Origin: Lactarius indigo
Taxonomy: Eukaryota; Basidiomycota; Agaricomycetes; Russulales; Russulaceae
Assembly (NCBI GenBank): GCA_025766275.1
Contig: JAFKAC010000007.1
Coordinates: forward strand, 1,798,001-1,862,000
Length of the DNA stretch: 64,000 nt
Direction of reading: 5' to 3'
Numbering within the stretch: the stretch's first letter is position 1; each line of letters begins with the position of its first letter. The position numbers were made by a program, and so were the translations under genes. The notes under the pieces are model-generated. The model was not told where the DNA came from. It did no database searches and worked only from the letters and a program-made list of their open reading frames with translations. Below, in pieces: positions 6,068 through 44,287 of this stretch.

Positions 6068-9000
6068 ATGGACACCCAACAACCCACTCGTCGAATTCCA
6101 GATATCAAGTTCCGAGTCCTTATTATAGGAAGGGCGAATGCTGGAAAAACATCTATCTTGCAACGAGTATGCGAGACGACGGACAGCCCCATTATTTACC
6201 GGGGAGGAATGCAGGTACGAGCTCAAACAACATATCTACGGATCTGATCTCACCTCCAACCAGGTTAAACTCGACCCGTCCATAGATGTTAGTGACAATA
6301 GTACTTCTCTTTGGTTGCCTCTAAACCTAAAGCCAGCGAGGCGAGCACCACGTCGACGATGAACTTACGTTCTCCAATCATAAGGGCTACATATTTCACG
6401 ATTCTTGCGGAATCGAGTCTGGAGGCGTAGAGGAACTCTGGGATTTGAAAGAATTCATTCGACGCAGATGTAGAGGAACGCGACTGGAAGACAGATTGCA
6501 TGCGATATGGTTTGGACTCTCAAGGGTTCACGCATTCACGGTTACGACAACTGACGTTCATATTTTCAGGTACTGCGTGCCAATGGACAACCAACGTCCA
6601 CAACTCGATCTCAAATTTTTCAAGGGCATCTGTCCCGACCGGAGTGGTACGACGTTATGGAAATCTGTGACTGTATTTAACAAAATGATTTGCAGTCCCC
6701 GTCATTGCGGTATTTACCAAATACGACCAATTCTTGCGAAATGTCGAAATCCATGTGGAGGATTTCGGAAGCCCAAATGACAACGTACTCGATGTGGCAG
6801 ACAAACAATTTCAAGAGCACTACCTGCGTCTCCTAGGTGACGATGTTAGGTTTGTTCGACTAGAAAGTAGGTTCAGAGGCAAAATACCAGAGTTATGTGC
6901 TAATGGGTGTCGGTAGAAATGCACAGGCAAAACACGCGCTGTGATACGCTTATTGAGACGACGGCCGCAGCTTTGAGTAATGACGCTGTCGCACTGATGC
7001 TCTTGGCTGTGCAAAAGGATAATATAAAACTGAGTGTTAAAACAGCGTTGGACCGGTGAGTGCACCAGTTGAAGGGGCGAAGCGAGCGTTGATCACAGCA
7101 ACCATTGCAGTATCCTCTCCAATACCAGCTGGGACAAGAGCAGCGAAGTTATAGTCGAGGAATGTCTTCTTCATTTTCCATACATCTGGGTAAGTTTTGA
7201 TGGTGTGTTAAATTGTGGTACATGGATCATGATGGTTGATGCCGCTTCACTCATAGTATGTGAGTGCTAACTCTTATTCACGGTTTTCAGATCGACTGAC
7301 CTAACCATGCCGGTGATCTACTCTTCAGTTTGTGAGTGGCTACCGTCCTTCGCTGCACTTCAAGTGTACTGACAGCTCCTATCCTTGACTCTCTAGAACG
7401 TGAGTGGCTGCCGTGGCTCTGCGTTTTAAGTGTATTGACAACGTATGTCCTCTGCTCTCCAGAGTGTGAGTGGCTGTTGTGGCTCGCTGTGTTTCAAGCA
7501 TGCTGACGATGCCTGTCCTCGGCTCTCCAGAGAGTGAGTGGCTGACAGGGCTCGTTATGTTTCAACCCTTCTGACGATGCCTGTCCACGGCTCTCCAGGA
7601 AGTGAGTGGCTGCTGTGGCCCGCAACGTTCCAAGCCTGCTGACGATACCCATCCTCGGCTCTCCAGTATGTGAGTGGCTGCCATGGCTCGCTGTGTTGCA
7701 ACCCTTCTGACGACACCTGTCCTCGGCTCTCCAGGAAGTGAGTGGCTGCTATGGCTCTCTATGTTTCAAACCTTCTGACGATGCCTGTCCACGGCTCTCC
7801 AGGAAGTGAGTGGCTGACATGGCTCGCTGTGTTTCACGCATGCTGATGACACCTCTCCTCGGCTCTCCAGAGAGTGAGTGGTTGCTATGGCCCGCAATGT
7901 TCCAACCCTGCTGACGACACCTGTCCTCGGCTCTCCAGATGGTGAGTGGCTGACATAGCTCGCTGTGTTTCAACCCTTCTGACGACACCTGTCCACGATT
8001 CTCCAGAAAGTGAGTGGTTGCTGTGGCCCGCTATATTTCAACCCTTCTGACGATGCCTGCCCTCGGCTCTCCAGTTGGTGAGTGGCTGACATGGCTCGCT
8101 GTGTTTCAAGCATGCTGATGACACCTGTCCTCGGCTCTCCAGAGAGTGAGTGGTTGCTGTGGCCCGCAACGATCCAAGCCTGCTGACGACACCTGTCCAT
8201 GGCTCTCCAGGAAGTGAGTGGCTGCTGTGGTCCACTATGTTTCAACCCTTCTGACGACACCTGTCTACGGCTCTCCAGTCTGTGAGTGGCTGCTGTGGCC
8301 CTCTATGTTTCAACCCTTCTGACGATGCTTGTCCTCGGCTCTCCAGGAAGTGAGTGGTTGCTGTGGCCCGCAACGTTCCAAGCCTGCTGACGATGCCTGT
8401 CCTCGGCTCTCCAGTTGGTGAGTGGCTGACAGGGCTCGCTGTGTTTCAACCCTTCTGACGATGCCTGTCCTCGGCTCTCCAGCAAGTGAGTGACTTCCAT
8501 GGCTCGCTGTGTTTCAAGCATGCTGATGGCACCTGTCCTCGGCTCTCCAGTATGTGAGTGGTTGCTGTGGCCCGCAACAATCCAAGCCTGCTGACGACAC
8601 CTGTCCACGGCTCTCCAGGAAGTGAGTGGCTGCTGTGGTCCGCTATGTTTCAACCCTTCTGACGATGCCTGTCCACGGCTCTCCAGGAAGTGAGTGGCTG
8701 ACATGGCTCGCTGTGTTTCAACCCTTGTGATGACACCTGTCCTCGGCTCTCCAGAAAGTGAGTGGCTGCTGTGGCCTGTTATGTTTCAACCCTTCTGACG
8801 ATGCCTGTCCTCGGCTCTCCAGTTGGTGAGTGGCTGCCATGGCTTGCTATGTTTCAAGCATGCTGATGGCACCTGTCCTCGGCTCTCCAGTCTGTGAGTG
8901 GTTGGTGTGGCCCACAACGTTCCAACCCTGCTGACGATGCCTGTCCTCGGCTTTCCAGGAAGTGAGTGGCTGCCATGGCTCGCTGTGTTTCAAGCATGCT

Positions 9001-12000
9001 GATGACACCTGTCCTCGGCTCTCCAGTCTGTGAGTGGCTGCTGTGGCCTGTTAGTTTCAACCCTTCTGACGATGCCTGTCCACGGCTCTCCAGTTGGTGA
9101 GTGGCTGCCATGGCTTGCTATGTTTCAAGCATGCTGATGGCACCTGTCCTCGGCTCTCCAGTCTGTGAGTGGTTGGTGTGGCCCACAACGTTCCAACCCT
9201 GCTGACAATGCCTGTCCTCGGCTTTCCAGGAAGTGAGTGGCTGCCATGGGTCGCTGTGTTTCAAGCATGCTGATGACACCTGTCCTCGGCTCACCAGAGA
9301 GTGAGTGGTTGTTGTGGCCCGCAACGTTCCAAGCCTGCTGACGATGCCTGTCCTCGGCTCTCCAGTTGGTGAGTGGCTGACATGGCTCGCTGTGTTTCAA
9401 CTCTTCTGACGACACCTGTCCATGACTCTCCAGAAAGTGAGTGGCTGCTGTGGCCCGCTATGTTTCAACCCTTCTGACGATGCCTGTCCACGGCTCTCCA
9501 GTTGGTGAGTGACTTCCATGGCTCGCTGCATTTCAAGCATGCTGGTGACACCTGTCCTCGGCTCTCCAGGAAGTGAGTGGTTGCTGTGGCCCGCAACAAT
9601 CCAAGCCTGCTGACGATGCCTATCCACGGCTCTCCAGGAAGTGAGTGGCTGACATGGCTCGCTGTGTTTCAACCCTTCTGATGACACCTGTCCACGGCTC
9701 TCCAGAAAGTGAGTGGCTGCTGTGGCCTGCTACATTGCAACCCTTCTGACGATGCCTGTCCTCGGCTCTCCAGTATGTGAGTGGCTGACATGGCTCGCTG
9801 TGTTTCACGCATGCTGATGACACCTGTCCTCGGCTCTCCAGGAAGTGAGTGGCTGCTGTGGCCCGCAACGTTCCAAGCCTGCTGACGATGCCTGTCCTCG
9901 GCTCTCCAGTTGGTGAGTGGCTGCCATGGCTCGCTGTGTTTCAACCCTTCTGATGACACCTGTCCACGATTCTCCAGAACGTGAGTGGCTGCTGTGGCCT
10001 GTTATGTTTCAACCCTTCTGACGATGCCTGTCATCGGCTCTCCAGCAAGTGAGTGGCTGACATGGCTCGCTGTGTTTCACGCATGCTGATGGCACCTGTC
10101 CTCGGCTCACCAGAGAGTGAGTGGCTGCTGTGGCCCACAACGTTCCAACCCTGCTGACGACACCTGTCCATGGCTCTCCAGTTGGTGAGTGGCTGCCATG
10201 GCTCGCTGTGTTTCAAGCATGCTGATGACACCTGTCCATGGCTCTCCAGGAGGTGAGTGGCTGCTGTGGCCCGCTATATTTCAACCCTTCTGACGATGCC
10301 TGTCCACGGCTCTCCAGTTGGTGAGTGGCTGCCATGGCTCGCTGTGTTTCAAGCATGCTGATGACACCTGTTCTCGGCTCTCCAGTCTGTGAGTGGTTGG
10401 TGTGGCCCACAACGTTCCAACCCTGCTGACGATGCCTGTCCTCGGCTCTCCAGTTGGTGAGTGGCTGCCATGGCTCGCTGTGTTTCACGCATGCTGATGA
10501 CACCTCTGCTCGGCTCTCCAGAGAGTGAGTGGCTGCTGTGGCCCGCAACATTCCAACCCTGCTGACGATGCCTGTCCTCGGCTCTCCAGGTGGTGAGTGG
10601 CTGACATGGCTCGCTGTGTTTCAACCCTTGTGATGACACCTGTCCTCGGCTCTCCAGGGAGTGAGTGGCTGCTGTGGCCTGTTATGTTTCAACTCTTCTG
10701 ACGATGCCTGTCCACGGCTCTCCAGTTGGTGAGTGGCTGCCATGGCTTGCTATGTTTCAAGCATGCTGATGGCACCTATCCTCGGCTCTCCAGTCTGTGA
10801 GTGGTTGGTGTGGCCCACAACGTTCCAACCCTGCTGACGATGCCTGTCCTCGGCTTTCCAGTTGGTGAGTGGCTGCCATGGCTCGCTGTGTTTCAAGCAT
10901 GTTGATGACACCTGTCCTCGGCTCTCCAGAGAGTGAGTGGTTGCTGTAGCCTGCAACGTTCCAAGCCTGCTGACGATGCCTGTCCTCGGCTCTCCAGGTT
11001 GTGAGTGGCTGCCATGGCTCGCTGTGTTTCACGCATGCTGATGACACCTCTCCTCGGCTCTCCAGGAAGTGAGTGGCTGCTGTGGCCCGCTATGTTTCAA
11101 ACCTTCTGACGATGCCTGACCTCGGCTCTCCAGGAAGTGCGTGGCTGCTGTGTCCCGCTATGTTTCAACGCTTCTTACGACACCTGTCCATGGCTCTCCA
11201 GAGAGTGAGTGGCTGCCATGGCTCGCTGTGTTTCAAGCATGCTGATGACACCTGTCCTCTGCTCTCCAGTCTGTGAGTGGTTGCTGTGGCCCGCAACGTT
11301 CCAAGCCTGCTGACGACACCTGTTCTCGGCTCTCCAGAGAGTGAGTGGCTGCCATTGCTCGCTGTGTTTCAAGCATGCTGACAACGCCTGTCCTTGACTC
11401 TCCAGTTGGTGAGTGGCTGCCATGGCTCGCTGTGTTTCAAGCATGCTGACGATGCCTGTCCTCGGCTCTCCAGAGAGTGAGCGGCTGCCATGGCTCGCTG
11501 TGTTTCAAGCATGCTGACGATGCCTGTCCTCGGCTCTCCAGAGAGTGAGTGGCTGCCATGTCTCACTGTGTTTCAAGCATGCTGATGATACCTGTCCTCG
11601 ACTCTCCAGTCTGTAAGTGGCTTCTGTGGCCCGCAACATTCCAACCCTTCTGACGATGCCTGCCCTCGGCTCTCCAGGTGGTGAGTGGCTGCCATGGCTC
11701 GCTGTGTTTCAAGCATGCTGACGACACCTGTTCTCGGCTCTCCAGTATGTGAGTGGCTGGTGTGGCCCGCTATGTTTCAACCCTTCTGACGATGCCTGCC
11801 CTCGGCTCTTCAGTATGTGAGTGGCTGCCATGGGTCGCTGTGTTTCAAGCATGCTGATGACACCTGTCCTCGGCTCTCCAGTCTGTGAGTGGTTGCTGTG
11901 GCCCGCAACGTTCCAAGCCTGCTGACGACACCTCTCCTCGGCTCACCAGAGAGTGAGTGGCTGCTGTGGCCCTCTATGTTCCAACCCTTCTGACGATGTC

Positions 12001-12521
12001 TGTCCTCAACTCTCCAGAACGTGAGTGGTTGCTGTGGCTCACCACATTTCAAGTGTGCTGACGCCGCTTGTTCTCGACTCTCCAGTTTGTGAGTTGCTGC
12101 CATACTTCACTCCATTCTAAGCGTGCTAACGACGTCTGTCTTGACTATTCAGGATGTTAGTTGCTGTCTGACTTACTGCATTTTTTGCCTGCTCAATACG
12201 TCTGTCTTTTACTCTCCATTGATTGTACTAATCCCTGGCCAACTAGTCTGTGCGTGCAAGCTCCCCTTTCTAGTCTGCTGATGGTATTCACCTTTCGTTC
12301 CCCAGCTTGTAAGTTGTCTTCATATGTTTACTAAAACATACATCTCACTTCATTAGGTGAAGCTGATTGTGTCACTTCCGACCATTCAAAATGTGTCCTC
12401 TTTTTATTACGGTCATTTGTCCGAACTTATGATATTTATCTCTTTAGCTCACCCCCACCAGTCTTGGCGGTTATCATTTAATCTTTGGTATTTCACTTCA
12501 TCATTTTTAGGCTATATTTAA
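6068..12521 (+). CDS. P-loop GTPase-like protein with about 75 single-codon exons in its 3' half
   Basis: Putative small-GTPase-like P-loop NTPase of a family common in Agaricomycetes. It has a Walker A motif GRANAGKT (residues 21-28), a DxxG-like switch (HDSCG) and a TKYD motif standing for NKxD. Seven ordinary exons join in frame with GT-AG introns: 6068-6214, 6264-6287, 6337-6509, 6570-6646, 6696-6866, 6917-7055 and 7111-7189, about 270 codons ending FPYIW in phase 0. Then come about 75 exons of exactly 3 nt, each between CAG and GTGAGT, from TAT at 7257-7259 to CTT at 12306-12308. A last 55-codon exon (12357-12521) ends in TAA. Predicted length with every microexon included is about 399 aa. 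The first two microexons (Tyr, Phe) and the last (Asp, Ser, Leu) are shared with the copy at 39670-44287. The ordinary exons are secure; use of the microexons is inferred from sequence only. Confidence 0.7.
7257..12308 (+). repeat. Tandem array of 68-bp intron-plus-codon units (about 70 regular units)
   Basis: Each unit reads GTGAGTGGCTG..., then CTGAC or CTGAT about 24 nt before the end, then CTCTCCAG, then three variable bases, and GTGAGT again. The intron-like part is 65 nt and the spacer 3 nt. Deviant units still keep usable donors: GTGCGT at 11137, GTAAGT at 11613, GTGAGC at 11477. Acceptors vary only to forms such as CTTTCCAG or CTCTTCAG. Edge units (7190-7330 and 12060-12356) are more diverged in sequence and length but keep donor, branch-like and acceptor motifs, so the array seems to have grown from ordinary introns of this gene. 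The unit length is not a multiple of 3, which explains the repeated antisense frames. Confidence 0.93.
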
Positions 12522-12863
12522 CTTTTGTCGAAGCTGTTATCCTCATCTTGAAGCACGCCACTTTTTTAGAGCTCTCAAAAATGTCGCCAGAATCGTCTTT
12601 AGCCCACGCGGAGGTAGACTATCGGGAAGCGAATATTAACTCAAGGATTCGACAATACCTTGTTACACATTCTCAAGAACAGTCTAGCGAGTTATTTGCG
12701 GGTTTTATTATGACTACTGATATAACATGCACGCACATATTAACATAGGTGTTTCGGGCAAGTTTGAGATAGATTACATTGTGAAATCAATGTACTTCAC
12801 TGTAGAATGTATTTAGCCAACCGGATTGAGTCGACGACAACCATCCATCAGAGCCAGTCCAAA
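12522..12863. repeat. 3' flank of the GTPase gene, duplicated at 39.35-39.67 kb
   Basis: The 3' flank continues the homology with the inverted copy, for example AAGCACGCCACTTTTTTAG and the stretch through GCCAACCGGATTGAG. A short open frame here and its counterpart in the other copy are similar (MSPESSLAHAEVDYREANI versus MSQGSALAHADVDYREANI). A small downstream coding fragment therefore cannot be excluded. Confidence 0.55.
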
Positions 12864-21191: not shown

Positions 21192-22232
21192 TTAGACGCC
21201 GATGCTAGCAGGGATGTTCCCGGTGACACTCGAGACAATGTCGTTAGTCTCAAGAGCGTTCTTGAACATATCATTGGGATTGCTGCCGGACTTGTCATAC
21301 GATTTGGGATCCTTGTCGTCGTACGGTTTGTAGTCCTTGTTATCGTACGACTTGTGATCCTTCCCGTCGTAGTCCGCCTTGCCGTCCTTGCCGCCCTCTG
21401 ACTTGTGGTCCTTGGCGTCGTTCGGCGCGTAATCCTTGCCCTTGTCGTTGTCCGACTTGTGATCCTTATTGTCGTCTGACTTGTGGTCATTATTAACGTC
21501 CGGCTTGATGTCCTGGCCCTTGACGTTGTCCGACTTGTGATCCTTATCGTCTACCGGCTTGGGGTTCTGGTCGTTGTCCGACTTGTGCTCCTGGTTGTCG
21601 TCCGACTTGTGCTCCTTGTTGTCGTCCGACTTGACGTCCTTCGCCTTGTCATCGTCCGACTTGTGATCCTTATTGTCTTCCGGCTTGACTTCCTTCGCCT
21701 TGTCGTCGTCCGATTTATGGTCCTTATTTTCGTCCGACTTGAAGTCCTTCCCCTTATTGTCGTCCGACTTGTGATCCTTGTATTCGTCGGACTTGGGGTC
21801 CTTTCCCTTGTCGCTCGACGGGTCGGGATACTTCTTATCTTCAGAGTAAGGCTGAGGGTAAGGCTTCTCCTCGAAGTACTTCACGTCCTCGGAGTAAGGT
21901 TGAGGATAAGGCTTCTCTTCAGGGTACTTCTTCTCCTCAGTGGCGGGATACGGCTGGTTCGCCTCAGGATACTGCTTCTTCTCCTCGGGGGAAGGATACG
22001 GCTTATCCTCGTCGAGACCGTAAGCCCTATACTTGTGATCATAAGACTTGTAATAAGGTCTGTCCTTAGAGTACTTGTGATGAGGCGAGTAAGATTGAGG
22101 GTAGTATTTGCCCGGATGGCGGGACTTCGGTTCGTCATAGTAGTCAGGTTGCGGCCCCATAGGTACCGCGGCCGCGGAGATGACCAGACCGGCGATGACG
22201 TAGACGAGCAAAGCAGAGAAACGCGAAAGCAT
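21192..22232 (-). CDS. Secreted repeat protein, cysteine-free relative of the neighbouring hydrophobins
   Basis: About 346 aa from the ATG of MLSRFSALLVYVIAGL, the start shared by the family; another in-frame ATG lies 7 codons upstream. Signal peptide with probable cleavage after SAAA. The first part is Tyr/Pro/Lys/Glu-rich (YPQPYSEDVKYFEEKPYP), then a long Asp/Lys/Ser/His repeat (DHKSDDNK and variants). Unlike its paralogues it has no cysteine after the signal region and ends MFKNALETNDIVSSV...ASIGV. Promoter, signal peptide, linker style and 3'-UTR match the intact hydrophobins at 25076-25910 and 28786-30368, so I infer that the hydrophobin domain was lost or replaced. Probably exported to the wall; function unknown. 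Confidence 0.75.
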   Translation of the reverse strand: MLSRFSALLVYVIAGLVISAAAVPMGPQPDYYDEPKSRHPGKYYPQSYSPHHKYSKDRPYYKSYDHKYRAYGLDEDKPYPSPEEKKQYPEANQPYPATEEKKYPEEKPYPQPYSEDVKYFEEKPYPQPYSEDKKYPDPSSDKGKDPKSDEYKDHKSDDNKGKDFKSDENKDHKSDDDKAKEVKPEDNKDHKSDDDKAKDVKSDDNKEHKSDDNQEHKSDNDQNPKPVDDKDHKSDNVKGQDIKPDVNNDHKSDDNKDHKSDNDKGKDYAPNDAKDHKSEGGKDGKADYDGKDHKSYDNKDYKPYDDKDPKSYDKSGSNPNDMFKNALETNDIVSSVTGNIPASIGV

Positions 22233-25075: not shown

Positions 25076-25910
25076 TTAGAGATTGATGTTCGTGCAGCCA
25101 ATGGCAATGGCACCATACTGGTGTTGCCGAGTTCAGCCAGAAGGACGGAACGGGAAGAATAATAATACGCACAAACTCGGCATTGCTGCAACACACGGTT
25201 TGCGCGGTGCAGGATTTTGCACCACCGTAATTAATATAAGGGGAGCAGTTTGTGTGTGCATTGCCGGTAAGACCTATCAAGGTCAAAATGTTGGGAATAC
25301 CCGCTCTTCTTACTTGTTTGATCTAAAAAGGTGGATCAGCAACATATTGATAGAGCCAATCGTGTCTTACGCTATCAATCGAGTCGCAGCAGTGCTGGTC
25401 TTCCACTGCGCACTGGCCAGACTTGCCGTCCTTGTCGCTATACTCTGACTTGTGGCCCTTTTCGTCCGACTTGCGAATCTTTCCCTTGTCATCGCTCGAC
25501 GAGTCGGGATGTTTCTTGTCTTCGGGGTGGGGTTTCTCCTCGAGATACTTCTTGTCTTCAGGGTGGGGCTTCTCCTCGAGATACTTCTTGTCTCTGGGGT
25601 ACTTCTTCTCGGGATACTTCTTCTCCTCAGGGTATTTATTCGCCTCAGGATACTTCTTCTCCTCAGGATATGGCTTGTAATACGGCTTATCCTCGCCGAG
25701 AGCGTACGGCTTGTACGTGTGGTCATAGGGCTTGGAATAAGGTTTCTCTTGGTACTTGTGATGAGGGGAGTAAGAATGAGGGTGGTACGGGGCCGGGCGG
25801 TACTTCGGTTCGTCATTGTAGTCAGCCGACTGTCCCGTAGGTGTCGCGGCCGCGGAGATGACCAGACCGGCAACGATGTAGACGAGCAAGGCAGAGAAAC
25901 GAGACAGCAT
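25076..25910 (-). CDS. Class I hydrophobin with charged N-terminal linker
   Basis: Small secreted amphipathic protein expected to self-assemble at air-water or wall surfaces. Exons 25910-25371, 25322-25173 and 25117-25076 join in phase 0; about 243 aa (250 if the ATG at 25931 is used). Signal peptide MLSRFSALLVYIVAGLVISA, then about 140 residues of Lys/Tyr/Pro/Glu-rich linker (EEKKYPE, EEKPHPEDKKY repeats), then a full hydrophobin domain. The cysteine pattern is C-x6-CC-x30-C-x11-C-x5-CC-x12-C-x5, ending GCTNINL. Both introns sit inside the cysteine domain. The spacing fits class I. The linker is unusually long for a hydrophobin of normally about 100-120 aa. Confidence 0.9.
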
Positions 25911-28785: not shown

Positions 28786-30368
28786 TTAGAGGTTGAAGTT
28801 CGTGCAGCCAACGGCAAGGAGGCCATACTAGTATCGCCGAGTTGTTTAGCAAAGGACGGAAATGAAGGGAGAGTAATAATACGCACAAACTTGGCGTCCT
28901 TGCAGCACACGGTCTGCGCGGTGCAGGATTTTGCACCAGCAGCATTATAATATGGGGAGCAGTTTGTGTGGGCATTGCCGGTAAACTCCGTCAAAGAGGT
29001 CATGCCCATGAATGAGAGAAGACCTAAGTCTCTTGCTTCCTCGACCTAAAAAGGTAGATCAGCAACATATTGACTGAGATGATCATGTCTTACGCTATCG
29101 ACAGAGTTGCAGCATTTCTGGTGTTCCACTGCGCACTCGCCAGACTGGTACTGGTGGTCCTCGTCGTCGTAGTCCGACTTGCGATCCTTGTCGTCTTCTG
29201 ACTTGCGATCCTTGTCGTCCAACTTGTGACTCTTGTCATCTTCCGACATGCGATTCTTGTAGTCGTCCGACTTGTGGTCCTTGTCGTCGTCCGACTTGCG
29301 ATCCTTCCCTTTGTCGTCGCTCGACTTGTTAGGATACACCTTGTCTTCAGAGTAAGGCTTAGACGGCTTCTCCTCAGAGTACTTCTTTTCTTCGTACTTC
29401 TTCTCCTCAGGCTTCTTCTCCTCGGGGTACTTCTTCTCCTCATACTTCTTCGCCTCGGGGTACTTCTTCTCCTCGTACTTCTTCGCCTCGGGGTACTTCT
29501 TCTCCTCAGGATACTTTTTCTCCTCGTACTTCTTCTCCTCAGAGTACTTCTTCTCCTCGGGATACTTTTTCTCCTCGTACTTCTTCTCCTCAGGGTACTT
29601 CTTCTCCTGAAGATACTTCTTCTCCTCGTACTTCTTCTCCTCAGGATACTTCTTCTCCTCAGGGTACTTCTTGTCTTCGTACTTCTTCTCCTCAGGATAC
29701 TTCTTCTCCTCAGGGTACTTCTTCTCTTCGACCTTCTTCTCCTCGGGATATTTCTTCTCCTCAGGGTACTTCTTCTCTTCGACCTTCTTCTCCTCAGGAT
29801 ATTTCTTCTCCTCGGGGTACTTCTTCTCCTCGTACTTCTTCTCCTCGTACTTCTCCTCAGGGTACTTCTTCTCCTCGGGCTTCTTCTCCTCAGGATACTT
29901 CTTCTCCTCAGGGTACTTCTTCGCCTCGGGGTAATTCTTCGCCTCAGGGTACTTCTTCTCCTCAGGGTACTTCTTCTCCTCGTACTTCTTCGCCTCGGGG
30001 TACTTTTTCTCCTCAGGGTACTTCTTCTCCTCGTACTTCTTCTCCTCGGGGTACTTTTTCTCCTCAGGGTACTTCTTGTCTTCGTACTTCTTCTCCTCAG
30101 GATACTGCTTCTTCTCCTCAGAATAAGGCTTGGGATAGTACGACTTATCCTCGCGGAGAGCGTACGGCTTGTACGTGTGGTCATAAGGCTTGGAATAAGG
30201 TTTCTCTTGGTACTTGTGATGAGGGGAGTAAGAATGAGGGTAGTACGGGGCCGGGCGGTGCTTCGGTTCGTCATTGTAGTCAGGTGGCGGTCCCATAGGT
30301 GTCGCGGCCGCGGAGATGACCAGACCGGCGACGACGTAGATGAGCAAGGCAGAGAAACGCGAAAGCAT
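28786..30368 (-). CDS. Class I hydrophobin with very long KKYPEE-type repeat linker
   Basis: Exons 30368-29094, 29045-28887 and 28827-28786 join in phase 0; about 491 aa (498 from the ATG at 30389). Signal peptide MLSRFSALLIYVVAGLVISA. About 300 residues of tandem EEKKYPEEKKYEEKKYPE-type repeats follow, then a short Asp/Lys/Ser-rich tract (SDDDKDHKSDD), then the hydrophobin domain C-x6-CC-x33-C-x11-C-x5-CC-x12-C-x5 ending GCTNFNL. The repeat is Lys/Glu/Tyr/Pro only and could form a charged, tyrosine-bearing wall tether. That role is inference. The plus strand is also open across the repeat because of its codon pattern and is not a gene. Confidence 0.9.
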
Positions 30369-39340: not shown

Positions 39341-39669
39341 CTCTGATGGACTTTTGTCGGCTCAATCCGGTTGGCTAAATACATTTTACGGTAAAATACG
39401 TTGATTTCACAATGTAATCTATCTCACACTCGCCGGAAACACCTATGTTACTATGTGCGTGCATGTTATATCAGTAGCCACAATAAAGCCTGCAAATAAC
39501 TCATTAGGCTGCCCTTGAGAAGGCGTAATGAGGTATTGTCGAATCCTTGAGTCAATATTCGCTTCCCGATAGTCAACATCTGCGTGAGCTAAAGCCGATC
39601 CTTGTGACATGTTTGAGAGCCGTAAAAAAGTGGCGTGCTTCAAGATGAGGATAACAGCTTGGACAAAGG
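39341..39669. repeat. Inverted copy of the GTPase 3' flank
   Basis: Reverse complement of 12522-12850, without the MITE present there. No independent gene. Confidence 0.6.
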
Positions 39670-42600
39670 TTAAATATAGCCTGAAGATGATGAAGCGAAA
39701 TACCAAAGATCAAATGGTAACCGCCAAGACTGGTGGGGGTGATCTAAAAAGATAAATATCATAAGTTCGGACGAATGAACGTAATACAAAGGGGGCACAT
39801 TTTGAATGGCGGGGAGTGACACGATCATCTTCACCTGATGAAGAAATGAGACGTTTGGCTTAGTAAGCATATGGAGAGAACTTACAAGCTGGAGAACGAA
39901 AGGTGAACACCATTAGCAGGCTAGAAAGGGGAACTTGCACGCACAGACTAGTTGGCCAGGGATGAGTACAATCAATGGAGAGTAAAAGACAAACGTATTG
40001 AGCAGGCAAAGAATGCGGTAAGTCAGACAGCAACTAACATCCTGAATAGTCAAGACAAACGTCATTAGCACACTTGGAATGGAGTGAAGTATGGCAGCAA
40101 CTCACAAACTGGAGAGTCGAGAACGAGCGTCATCAGCACGCCCGAAATGTGGTGAGCCACTGCAGCCACTCACCAACTGGAGAGTTGAGGACAGGCATCG
40201 TCAGAAGGGGTGAGACATAGCGGGCCACAGCAGCCACTCACTTCCTGGAGAGCCGAGGACAGGTGTCGTCAGAAGGGTTGAAACATAGCGGGCCATAGCA
40301 GCCACTCACTATCTGGAGAGCCGAGGACAGGTGTCGTCAGCAGGCTTGGAACGTTGCGGGCCACAGCAGCCACTCACTTCCTGGAGAGCCGAGGACAGGC
40401 ATCGTCAGAAGGGTTGAAACATAACGGGCCACAGCAGCCACTCACGAACTGGAGAGCCGAGGACAGGTGTCGTCAGCAGGGTTGAAACATAGCGGGCCAC
40501 AGCAGCCACTCACTATCTGGAGAGCCGAGGACAGGTGTCGTCAGAAGGGTTGAAACATAGCGGGCCACAGCAGCCACTCACTTCCTGGAGAGCCGAGGAC
40601 AGGCATCGTCAGAAGGGTTGAAACATAGCGGGCCACAGCAGCCACTCACTTCCTGTAGAGCCGAGGACAGGTGTCGTCAGCAGGCTTGGAACATAGCGGG
40701 CCACAGCAGCCACTCACTCCCTGGAGAACCGAGGACAGGTGTCGTCAGCAGGGTTGAAACATAGCGGGCCACAGCAGCCACTCACTTCCTGGAGAGCCGA
40801 GGACAGGTGTCGTCAGCAGGGTTGAAACATAGCGGGCCACAGCAGCCACTCACTTCCTGGAGAGCCAAGGACAGGTGTCGTCAGAAGGGTTGAAACATAG
40901 CGGGCCACAGCAACCACTCACTTCCTGGAGAGCCGAGGACAGGTGTCATCAGCAGGCTTGGAACGTTGTGGGCCACAGCAGCCACTCACTTCCTGGAGAG
41001 CCGAGGACAGGCATCGTCAGAAGGGTTGAAACATAGCGGGCCACAGCAGCCACTCACATACTGGAGAGCCGAGGACAGGTGTCGTCAGCAGGCTTGGAAC
41101 ATTGCGGCCACAGCAGCCACTCACTATCTGGAGAACCGAGGACAGGTGTCATCAGAAGGGTTGAAACATAGCGAGCCACAGCAGCCACTCACATACTGGA
41201 GAGCCGAGGACAGGTGTCGTCAGCAGGCTTGGAACGTTGCGGGCCACAGCAGCCACTCACATACTGGAGAGCCGAGGACAGGCATCGTCAGAAGGGTTGA
41301 AAAATAGCGGGCCACAGCAGCCACTCACTTGCTGGAGAGCCGAGGACAGGTGTCGTCAGCAGGGTTGAAACATTGCGGCCACAGCAGCCACTCACAGACT
41401 GGAGAGCCAAGGACAGGTGTCGTCAGAAGGGTTGAAACATAGCGGGCCATAGCAGCCACTCACTATCTGGAGAGCCGAGGACAGGTGTCGTCAGCAGGCT
41501 TGGAACGTTGTGGGCCACAGCAGCCACTCACGAACTGGAGAGCCGAAGACAGGTGTCGTCAGAAGGGCTGAAACATAGCGAGCCACAGCAGCCACTCACT
41601 TCCTGGAGAGCCGAGGACAGGTGTCGTCAGCAGGCTTGGAACATTGCGGCCACAGCAGCCACTCACTTCCTGGAGAGCCGAAGACAGGTGTCGTCAGAAG
41701 GGTTGAAACATAGCGGGCCACAGCAGCCACTCACTATCTGGAGAGCCGAGGACAGGTGTCGTCAGCAGGCTTGGAACGTTGCGGGCCACAGCAGCCACTC
41801 ACTCCCTGGAGAACCGAGGACAGGTGTCATCAGAAGGGTTGAAACATAGCGAGCCACAGCAGCCACTCACTTGCTGGAGAGCCGAGGACAGGTGTCGTCA
41901 GCAGGGTTGAAACATAGCGGGCCACAGCAGCCACTCACTTCCTGGAGAGCCAAGGACAGGTGTCGTCAGAAGGGTTGAAACATAGCGGGCCACAGCAACC
42001 ACTCACTTCCTGGAGAGCCGAGGACAGGTGTCGTCAGCAGGCTTGAAACATAGTGCGCCACAGCAGCCACTCACCAACTGGAGAGCCGAGGACAGGTGTC
42101 GTCAGCAGGGTTGAAACATAGCGGGCCACAGCAGCCACTCACTATCTGGAGAGCCGAGGACAGGTGTCGTCAGCAGGCTTGGAACATTGCGGGCCACAGC
42201 AGCCACTCACTTCCTGGAGAACCGAGGACAGGTGTCATCAGAAGGGTTGAAACATAGCGAGCCACAGCAGCCACTCACTTGCTGGAGAGCCGAGGACAGG
42301 TGTCGTCAGCAGGGTTGAAACATAGCGGGCCACAGCAGCCACTCACTTGCTGGAGAGCCGAGGACAGGTGTCGTCAGCAGGCTTGAAACATAGTGCGCCA
42401 CAGCAGCCACTCACTATCTGGAGAGCCGAGGACAGGTGTCGTCAGAAGGGTTGAAACATAGCGGGCCACAGCAGCCACTCACTTCCTGGAGAGCCGAAGA
42501 CAGGTGTCGTCAGAAGGGTTGAAACATAGCAGGCCACAGCAGCCACTCACAGACTGGAGAACCGAGGACAGGTGTCGTCAGCAGGCTTGGAACGTTGTGG

Positions 42601-44287
42601 GCCACAGCAGCCACTCACTCCCTGGAGAGCCGAGGACAGGCATCGTCAGCATGCTTGAAACACAGCGAGCCACAACAGCCACTCACAGACTGGAGAGCCA
42701 AGGACAGGTGTCGTCAGCAGGGTTGAAACATAGCGGGCCACAGCAGCCACTCACTCTCTGGAGAGCCAAGGACAGGCATCGTCAGAAGGGTTGAAACATA
42801 GCGGGCCACAGCAACCACTCACCACCTGGAGAGCCAAGGACAGGCATCGTCAGAAGAGTTGAAACATAGCCGGCCATGGCAGCCACTCACTTCCTGGAGA
42901 GCCGAGGACAGGTGTCGTCAGTACGCTTAAAACAGAGAGCCACGGCAGCCACTCACGTCCTGCAGAGTCAAGGATAGGCGTTGTCAGTACCTTTGAAGTG
43001 CAGCGAAGGACGGTAGCCGCTCACAAACTGGAGAGTAGATTACCGGGATTGTTAGGTCAGTCGATCTGGAAACCGTGAATAAGAGTTGGCACTCACATAC
43101 TATGAGTGAAGCGGCATCAAGCACCATGCTCCATGTACCACAATTAAAGACACCATCAACACTTACCCAGATGTATGGAAAAGGGATAAGACATTCCTTA
43201 ACTATACCATAGCTGCCCTTGTTCCGGCTGGTATTGGAAAGGACACTGCAATGGTTATTGTGATCAACGCTCGCTTCGACCCTTCAACCGGTGCACTCAC
43301 CGGTCCAACGCTGTTTTAACACTCAGTTTTAAATTATCCTTTTGCACAGCCAAGAGCATCAGTGCGACAGCGTCATTACTCAAAGCCGCAGCCGTCGTCT
43401 CAATAAGCATATCACAGCGCGTGTTTTGCCTGTGCATTTCTACCGACACGTATTAGCACGTAACTCTGGTATTTGCCTCTGAACCTACTTTGTAATCGCA
43501 CAAACCTAACATCGTCACCTAGGAGACGCAGGTAGTGCTCTTGAAACTGTTTGTCTGCCACATCGAGTACGTTGTCATTTGGGTTTCCGAAATCTTCCAC
43601 ATGGATTTCGACATTTCGCAGGAATTGGTCGTATTTGGTAAATACCGCAATGACGGGGACTTGAAATCATTCTGTTAAATACAGTCATAAATTTCCATAA
43701 CATCGTACCATTCCAGTAGGGACAAATGTCCTTGAAAAATTTGAGATCGAGTTGTGGACGTTGGTTGTCCATTGGCACGCAGTACCTGAAAGTATGATCG
43801 TCAGTTGTTGTAACCCTGAACGCGTGAACCCTTGAGAGTCCAAACCATATTGCATGCAATCTAGCCCCCAGTCCCGTTTCTCTACACTTGCGTTGAATGA
43901 ATTCTCTCAAAGTCCAGAGTTCCTCTATGCCTCCAGACTCGATTCCACAAGAATCGTGAAATATGTAGCCCTCATGATTGGAGAACGTAAGTTCATCGTC
44001 GATGTCGTGCTCTCCTCTCTGGCTCTAAGTTTAGAGGCAACCAAAGAGAAGTACTATTGGCACAAACATCAATGGACGGGTCGAGTGTAACCTGGTTGGA
44101 GGTGAGATCAGACCCGCAGATATGTTGTTTGAGCTCGTACCTGCTTTCCTCCTCGGTAAATAATGGGGCTGTCCGTCGTCTCGCATACTCGTTGCAAGAT
44201 AGACGTCTTTCCAGCATTCGCCCTTCCTATAATAAGGACTCGGAACTTGATCTTTGGAATTTGACGAGTGGGTTGTTGGGTGTCCAT
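39670..44287 (-). CDS. Second P-loop GTPase-like gene with about 48 single-codon exons
   Basis: Paralogue of the gene at 6068-12521 with the same structure. Walker A GRANAGKT, HDSCG and TKYD motifs are present. The ordinary exons run from MDTQQPTRQIPKIKF at 44287 to ECLIPFPYIW near 43171. Then follow about 48 exons of 3 nt (TAT, TTT, GAC, GAA, GTG, ... GAT, TCT, CTT), and a final exon beginning VKMIVSLPAIQNV and ending in TAA at 39670-39672. I see no frameshift in the ordinary exons. Predicted length is roughly 370 aa if every microexon is used. It lies inside the insertion that split the AKR gene, so it moved as a complete gene with its flanks. Confidence 0.68.
40085..43099 (-). repeat. Second array of 68-bp intron-plus-codon units (about 43 regular units)
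   Basis: On the minus strand the units read GTGAGTGGCTGCTGTGGCC... CTGAC ... GGCTCTCCAG followed by three bases. Most units are 68 bp, a few 67. The units are more uniform than in the first array. The codon set differs: GAA, ATA, CAA, TTC, GGA and TAT dominate here; TTG, AGA, TCT and GAA in the first array. No triplet is a stop codon. One acceptor is CTCTACAG (about 40650) and one donor is GTGAGC (about 43020), both still usable. Confidence 0.93.

Follow-up and report, generated by a model that had tools for sequence, protein, structure and literature searches.

What is a 68-bp tandem repeat doing at the end of a GTPase gene, and could it be that the spliceosome reads it one codon at a time? 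The question is raised by a gene in the window considered here, a stretch of 64,000 nucleotides from the basidiomycete Lactarius indigo (contig C259, 1798001-1862000), in which seven ordinary exons lead into an array of 75 units, each made of an intron-like sequence and three nucleotides. A first-pass annotation of the window proposed that the repeat consists of donor/acceptor units with 3-nt exons, and on this the sequence, Tandem Repeats Finder (TRF) and a unit parse agree. In our judgement it is highly probable that splicing joins the array, as some 75 three-base exons in succession, into one continuous C-terminal tail with one exon per residue; the sequence signals and the reading frames of relatives described below are the grounds for this. 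There are good grounds for taking recombination to be the editor of the tail, and recognition is suggested as its function by analogy. Searches covered the 90.3-Mb, 291-contig assembly.

The GTPase gene and its array

The seven upstream exons, recognized by exon joining, lie on the + strand at 6068..6214 (exon 1, with the P-loop GRANAGKT of the GTPase, for which there is also a family match), 6264..6287, 6337..6509, 6570..6646, 6696..6866 (exon 5, with the FTKYD motif), 6917..7055 and 7111..7189 (exon 7, for which homologues also speak). Joined, they amount to 810 nt, which bears out the earlier proposal that they end in phase 0 in FPYIW. GRANAGKT and FTKYD agree with the Walker A (GxxxxGK[ST]) and TKxD motifs as usually defined, and we take the protein to be a P-loop (TRAFAC-type) GTPase. 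A Pfam scan of the 270-aa part returned six P-loop or GTPase-like models, the best being MMR_HSR1 at 18.3 bits, below its cut-off of 21.9, and no NACHT or ankyrin match. Several L. indigo models (P0022, P0032, P0043 and others) carry, ahead of the P-loop, about 140 additional N-terminal residues that the model of the window gene lacks.

The array itself (W1; 7257..12308, + strand) comprises 75 predicted one-codon exons and introns mostly of 65 nt. TRF finds a period of 68 at 7332-12101 (70.2 copies) and also one of 136, with 83% matches, and the unit parse gives 75 consecutive units of acceptor, 3 nt and donor, spaced by 68 nt in 68 of the 74 intervals (the remainder being 72, 66, 67, 67, 94 and 59). 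The donors are GTGAGT, with rare GTGCGT, GTGAGC, GTAAGT and GTTAGT. The triplets run from TAT (7257-7259) to CTT (12306-12308) and encode, with no stop, the peptide YFNSREYEERMKLRESELQYEEKLSESLSERLKLEEKYELNQRLELSLRVGLSLRVEERSRLRRSVYYSRNFDSL, which starts YFNSREYEERMKLRESELQYEEKLSE and ends RNFDSL; the predicted tail codons after FPYIW thus start YFNSREYEERMK, and full inclusion would add about 225 nt. The third last intron (window 12156-12246) is longer than the others; it measures 91-92 nt in many arrays, is alike across paralogues, and may have a decayed unit inside it.

Beyond the array, the first-pass annotation had placed a last exon at 12357-12521, open to a stop. This holds for the unspliced reading only, as the homologues put a phase-0 exon, VKLIVSLPTIQN, at 12357..12392 (+), where the pattern TK.I..LHTIQN is conserved in P0129-P0134. 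It would be followed by a predicted exon at 12448..12487 (+; LTPTSLGGYHLIF and one further nucleotide), which matches P0103 and P0121-P0127, and by a predicted C-terminal domain exon, (A)VILILKHATFLELS...FIMTTD, at 12534..about 12721 (+; 3' end approximate), located with the help of homologues and a search for C-terminal exons. A phase-0 frame can therefore be followed from the GTPase exons through the array into a conserved domain, by way of VKLIVSLPTIQN and the two predicted exons to AVILILKHATFL. An unspliced reading frame through the array was considered and ruled out by reasoning, given the 68-nt period and the TGA in both donor and branch site.

The C-terminal domain is under purifying selection. 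Its exon was extracted from 16 arrays, and among the 12 of equal length (66 pairs of paralogues) non-synonymous divergence (dN) was 0.16 and synonymous divergence (dS) 0.46, a dN/dS of about 0.34. An AlphaFold2 model of the relative P0149 (mean predicted local distance difference test score, pLDDT, 71.6) has a GTPase part and helices; the tail is modelled with low to medium confidence, the helical C-terminal domain confidently. A fold relative that might indicate function was sought with this model in the PDB; the matches were generic GTPases and one weak dynamin-like protein (E 8.8e-4, template modelling score 0.23), and therefore no functional inference is drawn from them.

Splice signals and coding evidence across the genome

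The architecture recurs throughout the assembly. The pattern GTGAGT-N48..72-AG-NNN-GTGAGT-N48..72-AG-NNN-GTGAGT has 1489 matches (522 + 967), the first places of which were enumerated, against none in a reversed control, and is therefore not a product of chance. Thirty-two arrays of 15-77 units, haplotype copies included, were parsed: W1, a second array in the window (W2) and 30 from loci chosen by their match to the window array or its GTPase. Seven of the 37 fetched loci (L009-L045) lack an array, and no clean array-less paralogue that might serve for comparison was found among these seven: in L037, L044 and L045 only gene fragments were recognized and in L040 no motif, L041 and L042 are short upstream pieces, and L038 looks truncated. 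There are 49 C-terminal exons in the genome. For 43 of them a P-loop exon can be paired on the same strand 2.4-10.5 kb upstream, far enough for an array to fit in between; the pairing is doubtful in three cases (on C6, and the second C-terminal copies on C268 and C223). As to irregularities, the L012 array has one 6-nt exon, L039 a GC donor and several other arrays GTCAGT donors, and an acceptor that is dead in L027 is intact in its copies L020 and L028.

With their GT-AG ends, branch motif and fungal-range length (54-73 nt in eight arrays), the introns have the sequence features of the U2 spliceosomal type. The CTGAC/CTGAT-like branch site that had been pointed out in the window holds generally: of 1274 introns, 1218 have a CTNAY motif at a distance of 12-42 nt from the 3' end, against 210.6 when the intron interiors are shuffled. 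When exon length was left open (GTRAGY donors, acceptor no more than 14 nt away), 3 nt was still the length of 1266 of 1269 scorable exons, with one each of 6, 4 and 1 nt; 41 further donors had no scorable acceptor. In length these exons are well under the 30-nt ceiling for microexons, and the ORFs of relatives suggest that they may be included in mRNA.

None of the 1356 triplets in the 32 arrays is a stop, compared with about 164 expected from position composition if positions are independent. Reduced to the 387 distinct pairs of array and triplet, the count is again zero, with about 34 expected. Rare triplets that lie a single step from a common one number 114; of these, 20 are synonymous, as many as expected, and 94 are not, and here too stops are absent (8.7 expected).

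In three old arrays (L035, L039 and L043) the introns average 66-71% identity (0.66 for L035, over 60 sampled pairs) and fall in all length classes modulo 3, and the parsed exons are still 3 nt, save in irregular units such as that with the GC donor. L035 is the first half of the old array on contig C1; together with L046 (C1:1970900-1978500) it gives 83 one-codon exons without a stop, separated by introns of 55-73 nt that likewise occupy all three length classes, with a branch motif in 73 of 81. A 158-nt gap probably hides one more unit. The peptide of this array contains a hydrophobic, Cys-rich stretch, SVLLVCCLCCFCPICIPCCLCNCF, and its best hydrophobic 19-residue window, in which each residue comes from its own exon, was reached by none of 1000 order shuffles. 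The stretch could span a membrane; local duplication of a Cys unit could also contribute to it. Of the 32 arrays and the completed C1 array, all scored for hydrophobic clustering, the last was the only one that fewer than 50 of 1000 shuffles surpassed, and a search for heptad periodicity in the array peptides gave nothing clear (|z| at most 2.6).

One further locus, L036 (C91:53900-57500), has 23-24 one-codon triplets with a unit intron of 67 nt beside a more distant P-loop/GTPase exon. This intron differs from that of the window in its first two thirds and is alike near the branch site. L036 is possibly an independent second origin; common descent is also compatible with what is seen.

Reading frames in related fungi

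Among 239 retrieved proteins, 20 open reading frames (ORFs) were judged to span the position of the array; they come from short contigs, with jgi as source and lgn for one. All run uninterrupted from the GTPase part through a hypervariable tail into the C-terminal domain, the tails measuring 28-61 residues, including, as cut, about three conserved terminal residues. In composition the tails resemble the triplets (r 0.75), which correlate less well with the GTPase part (r 0.56). P0134 and P0148 are identical in 108 of 112 residues of the N-terminal flank and in 16 of 34 aligned residues of the tail. It is very likely, from their missing introns, that these ORFs derive from RNA, and we infer that the genes behind them have the same arrays and that the frames reflect their spliced RNA.

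Partly spliced products also seem to be present. In P0179, P0056, P0092 and P0169 the tail gives way, after 3, 4, 11 and 18 residues, to a VSGC-like reading of an array intron, and these frames so appear to break off in a retained intron of the array type. An intron-like reading is found in 19 of the 112 homologues with an FPYIW-like motif, P0038 (at least) by a loose match. Other Lactarius gene models end near FPYIW or run into an array intron, and in this way public annotation overlooks the array. From such readings, arrays are very likely present in L. vividus, L. hatsudake, L. sanguifluus, L. quietus and L. tabidus. The genome model P0177 of L. quietus has a 42-residue tail with a hydrophobic stretch (beaten by 34 of 1000 shuffles), and the relatives' tails as a group show a dip at lag 2 in hydrophobic periodicity (z -4.8), which suggests that they are partly helical.

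Codon diversity and recombination

In eight recent arrays (W1, W2, L009, L010, L012, L015, L024 and L031) pairwise diversity is 0.45-0.76 at triplet positions and 0.07-0.21 in the intron interior, and in the old L035 (11 units of 68 nt) it is 0.64-0.76 and 0.39. Codon diversity is thus nearly saturated where introns are 93% identical. Contig C218 seems to be the second haplotype of C259, and comparison of the two shows that the ends of an array are common whereas the middle is not; the arrays have 75 and 77 units in one case and 48 and 60 in the other, and the difference consists of whole intron+codon units. Between the copies L031/L033, L030/L032 and L011/L015, divergence is about 4-7% for introns and 49-72% for triplets, in an alignment whose register is uncertain because the introns are homogenized; L016 and L018 differ in one of 33 codons (GAA to TCT). 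Codon use is mostly one per amino acid (GAA for 238 of 247 Glu, AGA for 170 of 187 Arg), unlike that of the GTPase exons, and fits a history in which a few founder units were shuffled, not one of point mutation.

A mechanism can be proposed on this basis. Because each codon lies between stretches of near-identical intron of about 65 bp, unequal exchange or gene conversion could add, delete or swap single codons while the frame is kept, and selection would purge stops and retain splice signals. The tail would then be the variable sensing or targeting part of the GTPase, most likely used in recognition, whether of nonself or of a partner, by analogy with fungal NLR proteins. A bolder version, for which we would claim somewhat less than an even chance, is that this is a codon-shuffling gene, in which recombination and splicing together rewrite the tail of a receptor residue by residue with the frame unbroken; that dozens of such genes form a hypervariable recognition repertoire; and that the arrangement arose independently of that in truffles, perhaps twice in this genome if L036, with its different unit intron, is counted. 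Two testable questions follow: by what means a spliceosome could process an unbroken series of 75-83 exons of 3 nt each, and whether introns can serve as homology spacers through which a protein evolves one residue at a time.

Objections and alternatives

Several observations weigh against splicing of the array into a tail, or against the use made of the evidence for it. The avoidance of stops is partly confounded by splicing: NAG triplets are rare as a class (AAG 0, CAG 1, GAG 9), and TAG may be shunned because it would compete with the true acceptor. Upstream donors would arise from TAA and TGA, yet TAT, which gives GTATGT, occurs 55 times. The expected numbers of stops are also too generous, because triplets are correlated through duplication and haplotype copies are counted. 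There are irregular units with GTCAGT or GC donors, a 4-nt exon (L014) and a dead acceptor (L027). In L020, L027 and L028 the triplets diverge at about the rate of the introns (14 of 345 against 318 of 5639 sites), and strong purifying selection on each codon is therefore not demonstrated. For the relatives, which are known by their ORFs alone, the RNA status of the short jgi contigs is deduced from continuous frames. Lastly, in two Lactarius gene models, P0103 and P0142, FPYIW is followed at once or almost at once by the C-terminal exon, as it would be if one large intron were removed.

Of the alternatives, the one that survives best is that the array is spliced mainly as a generator of isoforms, exons being skipped in many combinations so that each transcript carries its own subset. 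We hold this only tentatively as the main role of the array, and it is compatible with splicing into a continuous tail. All exons being 3 nt and in phase 0, any skip would be neutral for the frame, and near-identical splice sites would let any donor meet any acceptor. The truffle genes discussed below are, as far as the sources excerpt them, described in terms of alternative splicing of codon-sized microexons; partly spliced products occur among the relatives, and the relatives' tails lie on the short side of the range of the arrays in this genome (15-83 units). Against it, no isoform pairs of one gene are seen among the proteins, in a database clustered at 90% identity and without read counts.

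It is very improbable that the whole of 7190-12356 is one giant intron, its units splice-like decoys and its triplets never in mRNA. Removal of the array would keep the frame (phase 0 to phase 0), and the two gene models just mentioned join its flanks; but the absence of stops and the constant length of the triplets, the old array included, stand against it, as do the other introns of the gene, of only about 46-60 nt, and the tails in the relatives' ORFs. Less credible still is the insertion of an intron element between every codon of an ordinary exon. Spread of introns by introners does occur in some fungi, and such a process would account for homogeneous introns and diverse codons; but alleles differ by whole intron+codon units, almost one codon is used per amino acid, and we know of no mechanism for insertion every 3 nt, in phase 0, at dozens of sites. 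Least probable of all is a non-coding minisatellite with fossil splice signals, which would suit a tandem repeat with a higher-order period of 136 but not the missing stops, the signals kept in diverged arrays, the conserved domain downstream or the tails of the relatives. One-codon exons between spliceosomal introns, as the first-pass annotation had it, are the best reading, in view of the 3-nt length, the absence of stops, the branch sites, the frame, the old array and the relatives' tails.

The second gene and other repeats in the window

The window contains a second gene of the family on the - strand. Its P-loop exon (44129..44287; C259:1842129-1842287) was located by a genome match, its array W2 (39886..43099) by TRF and the unit parse, and its C-terminal domain exon (39470..39658; C259:1837470-1837658) by the search for C-terminal exons. 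W2 has 48 predicted one-codon exons, YFDEVRSGSEIQQEILEEQGIEEFISQYYIYEEEEGEEIFEIELFDSL, with no stops in the 48 triplets. Further tandem repeats lie at window 21294-21986, 25513-25670 and 29166-30131; most of their periods are multiples of 3 (18, 24, 33, 51, 54, 78), and they resemble repetitive coding sequence, one example being Lys/Glu/Tyr/Pro-rich on the - strand.

Comparison with known systems

Proteins assembled from many very small in-phase exons are known from the micro-exon genes of schistosomes and the bicycle genes of aphids; these differ from the Lactarius arrays in that the exons are mostly longer than one codon and there are no near-identical tandem units. The sensor repeats of fungal NLR proteins combine high internal conservation with variable positions. 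Like the arrays, they are homogeneous in tandem and have variable positions that recombination reshuffles. The difference is that the repeat is protein there, whereas in Lactarius conservation lies in the intron, the exon being no more than the variable codon. Shuffled conserved repeats are mentioned in PMC10197012.

Exons of 1-3 nt, spliced or annotated, are on record singly, as excerpts of the respective articles describe for Drosophila homothorax (PMC7392893) and plants (PMC8831610), with 3-bp or 1-nt microexons, and for the fungal lipS gene, with two 3-nt exons (PMC5639578); these, so far as described there, do not form arrays. Microexons are also mentioned in an excerpt of a paper on Phanerochaete P450 genes. 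Among the literature matches listed, there was no codon-sized exon array in a basidiomycete or in a GTPase.

The closest likeness is to the truffle Tuber melanosporum, and the statement of the first-pass annotation that no gene with dozens of tandem single-codon exons had been described cannot stand, as the nank genes precede it. According to excerpts of three articles (PMC4986451, PMC3689799 and PMC10197012, all citing Iotti et al. 2012), this expanded NACHT-ankyrin (nank) family is diversified via alternative splicing of tens of 3-bp microexons. On that description, the two cases share tens of codon-sized exons, an expanded and fast-evolving family, an ectomycorrhizal fungus, a nucleoside triphosphate-binding domain and a diversified sensing region. 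The Lactarius case differs in belonging to a basidiomycete and to a GTPase family without NACHT or ankyrin matches, in having a separate conserved domain after the array, and in that reshuffling of units between haplotypes is seen here, whereas the excerpts on Tuber speak of alternative splicing. The kind of architecture is thus already known from the truffle, and Lactarius adds another phylum and another protein family; its presence in an unrelated family and phylum would suggest that fungal recognition genes have converged on it.

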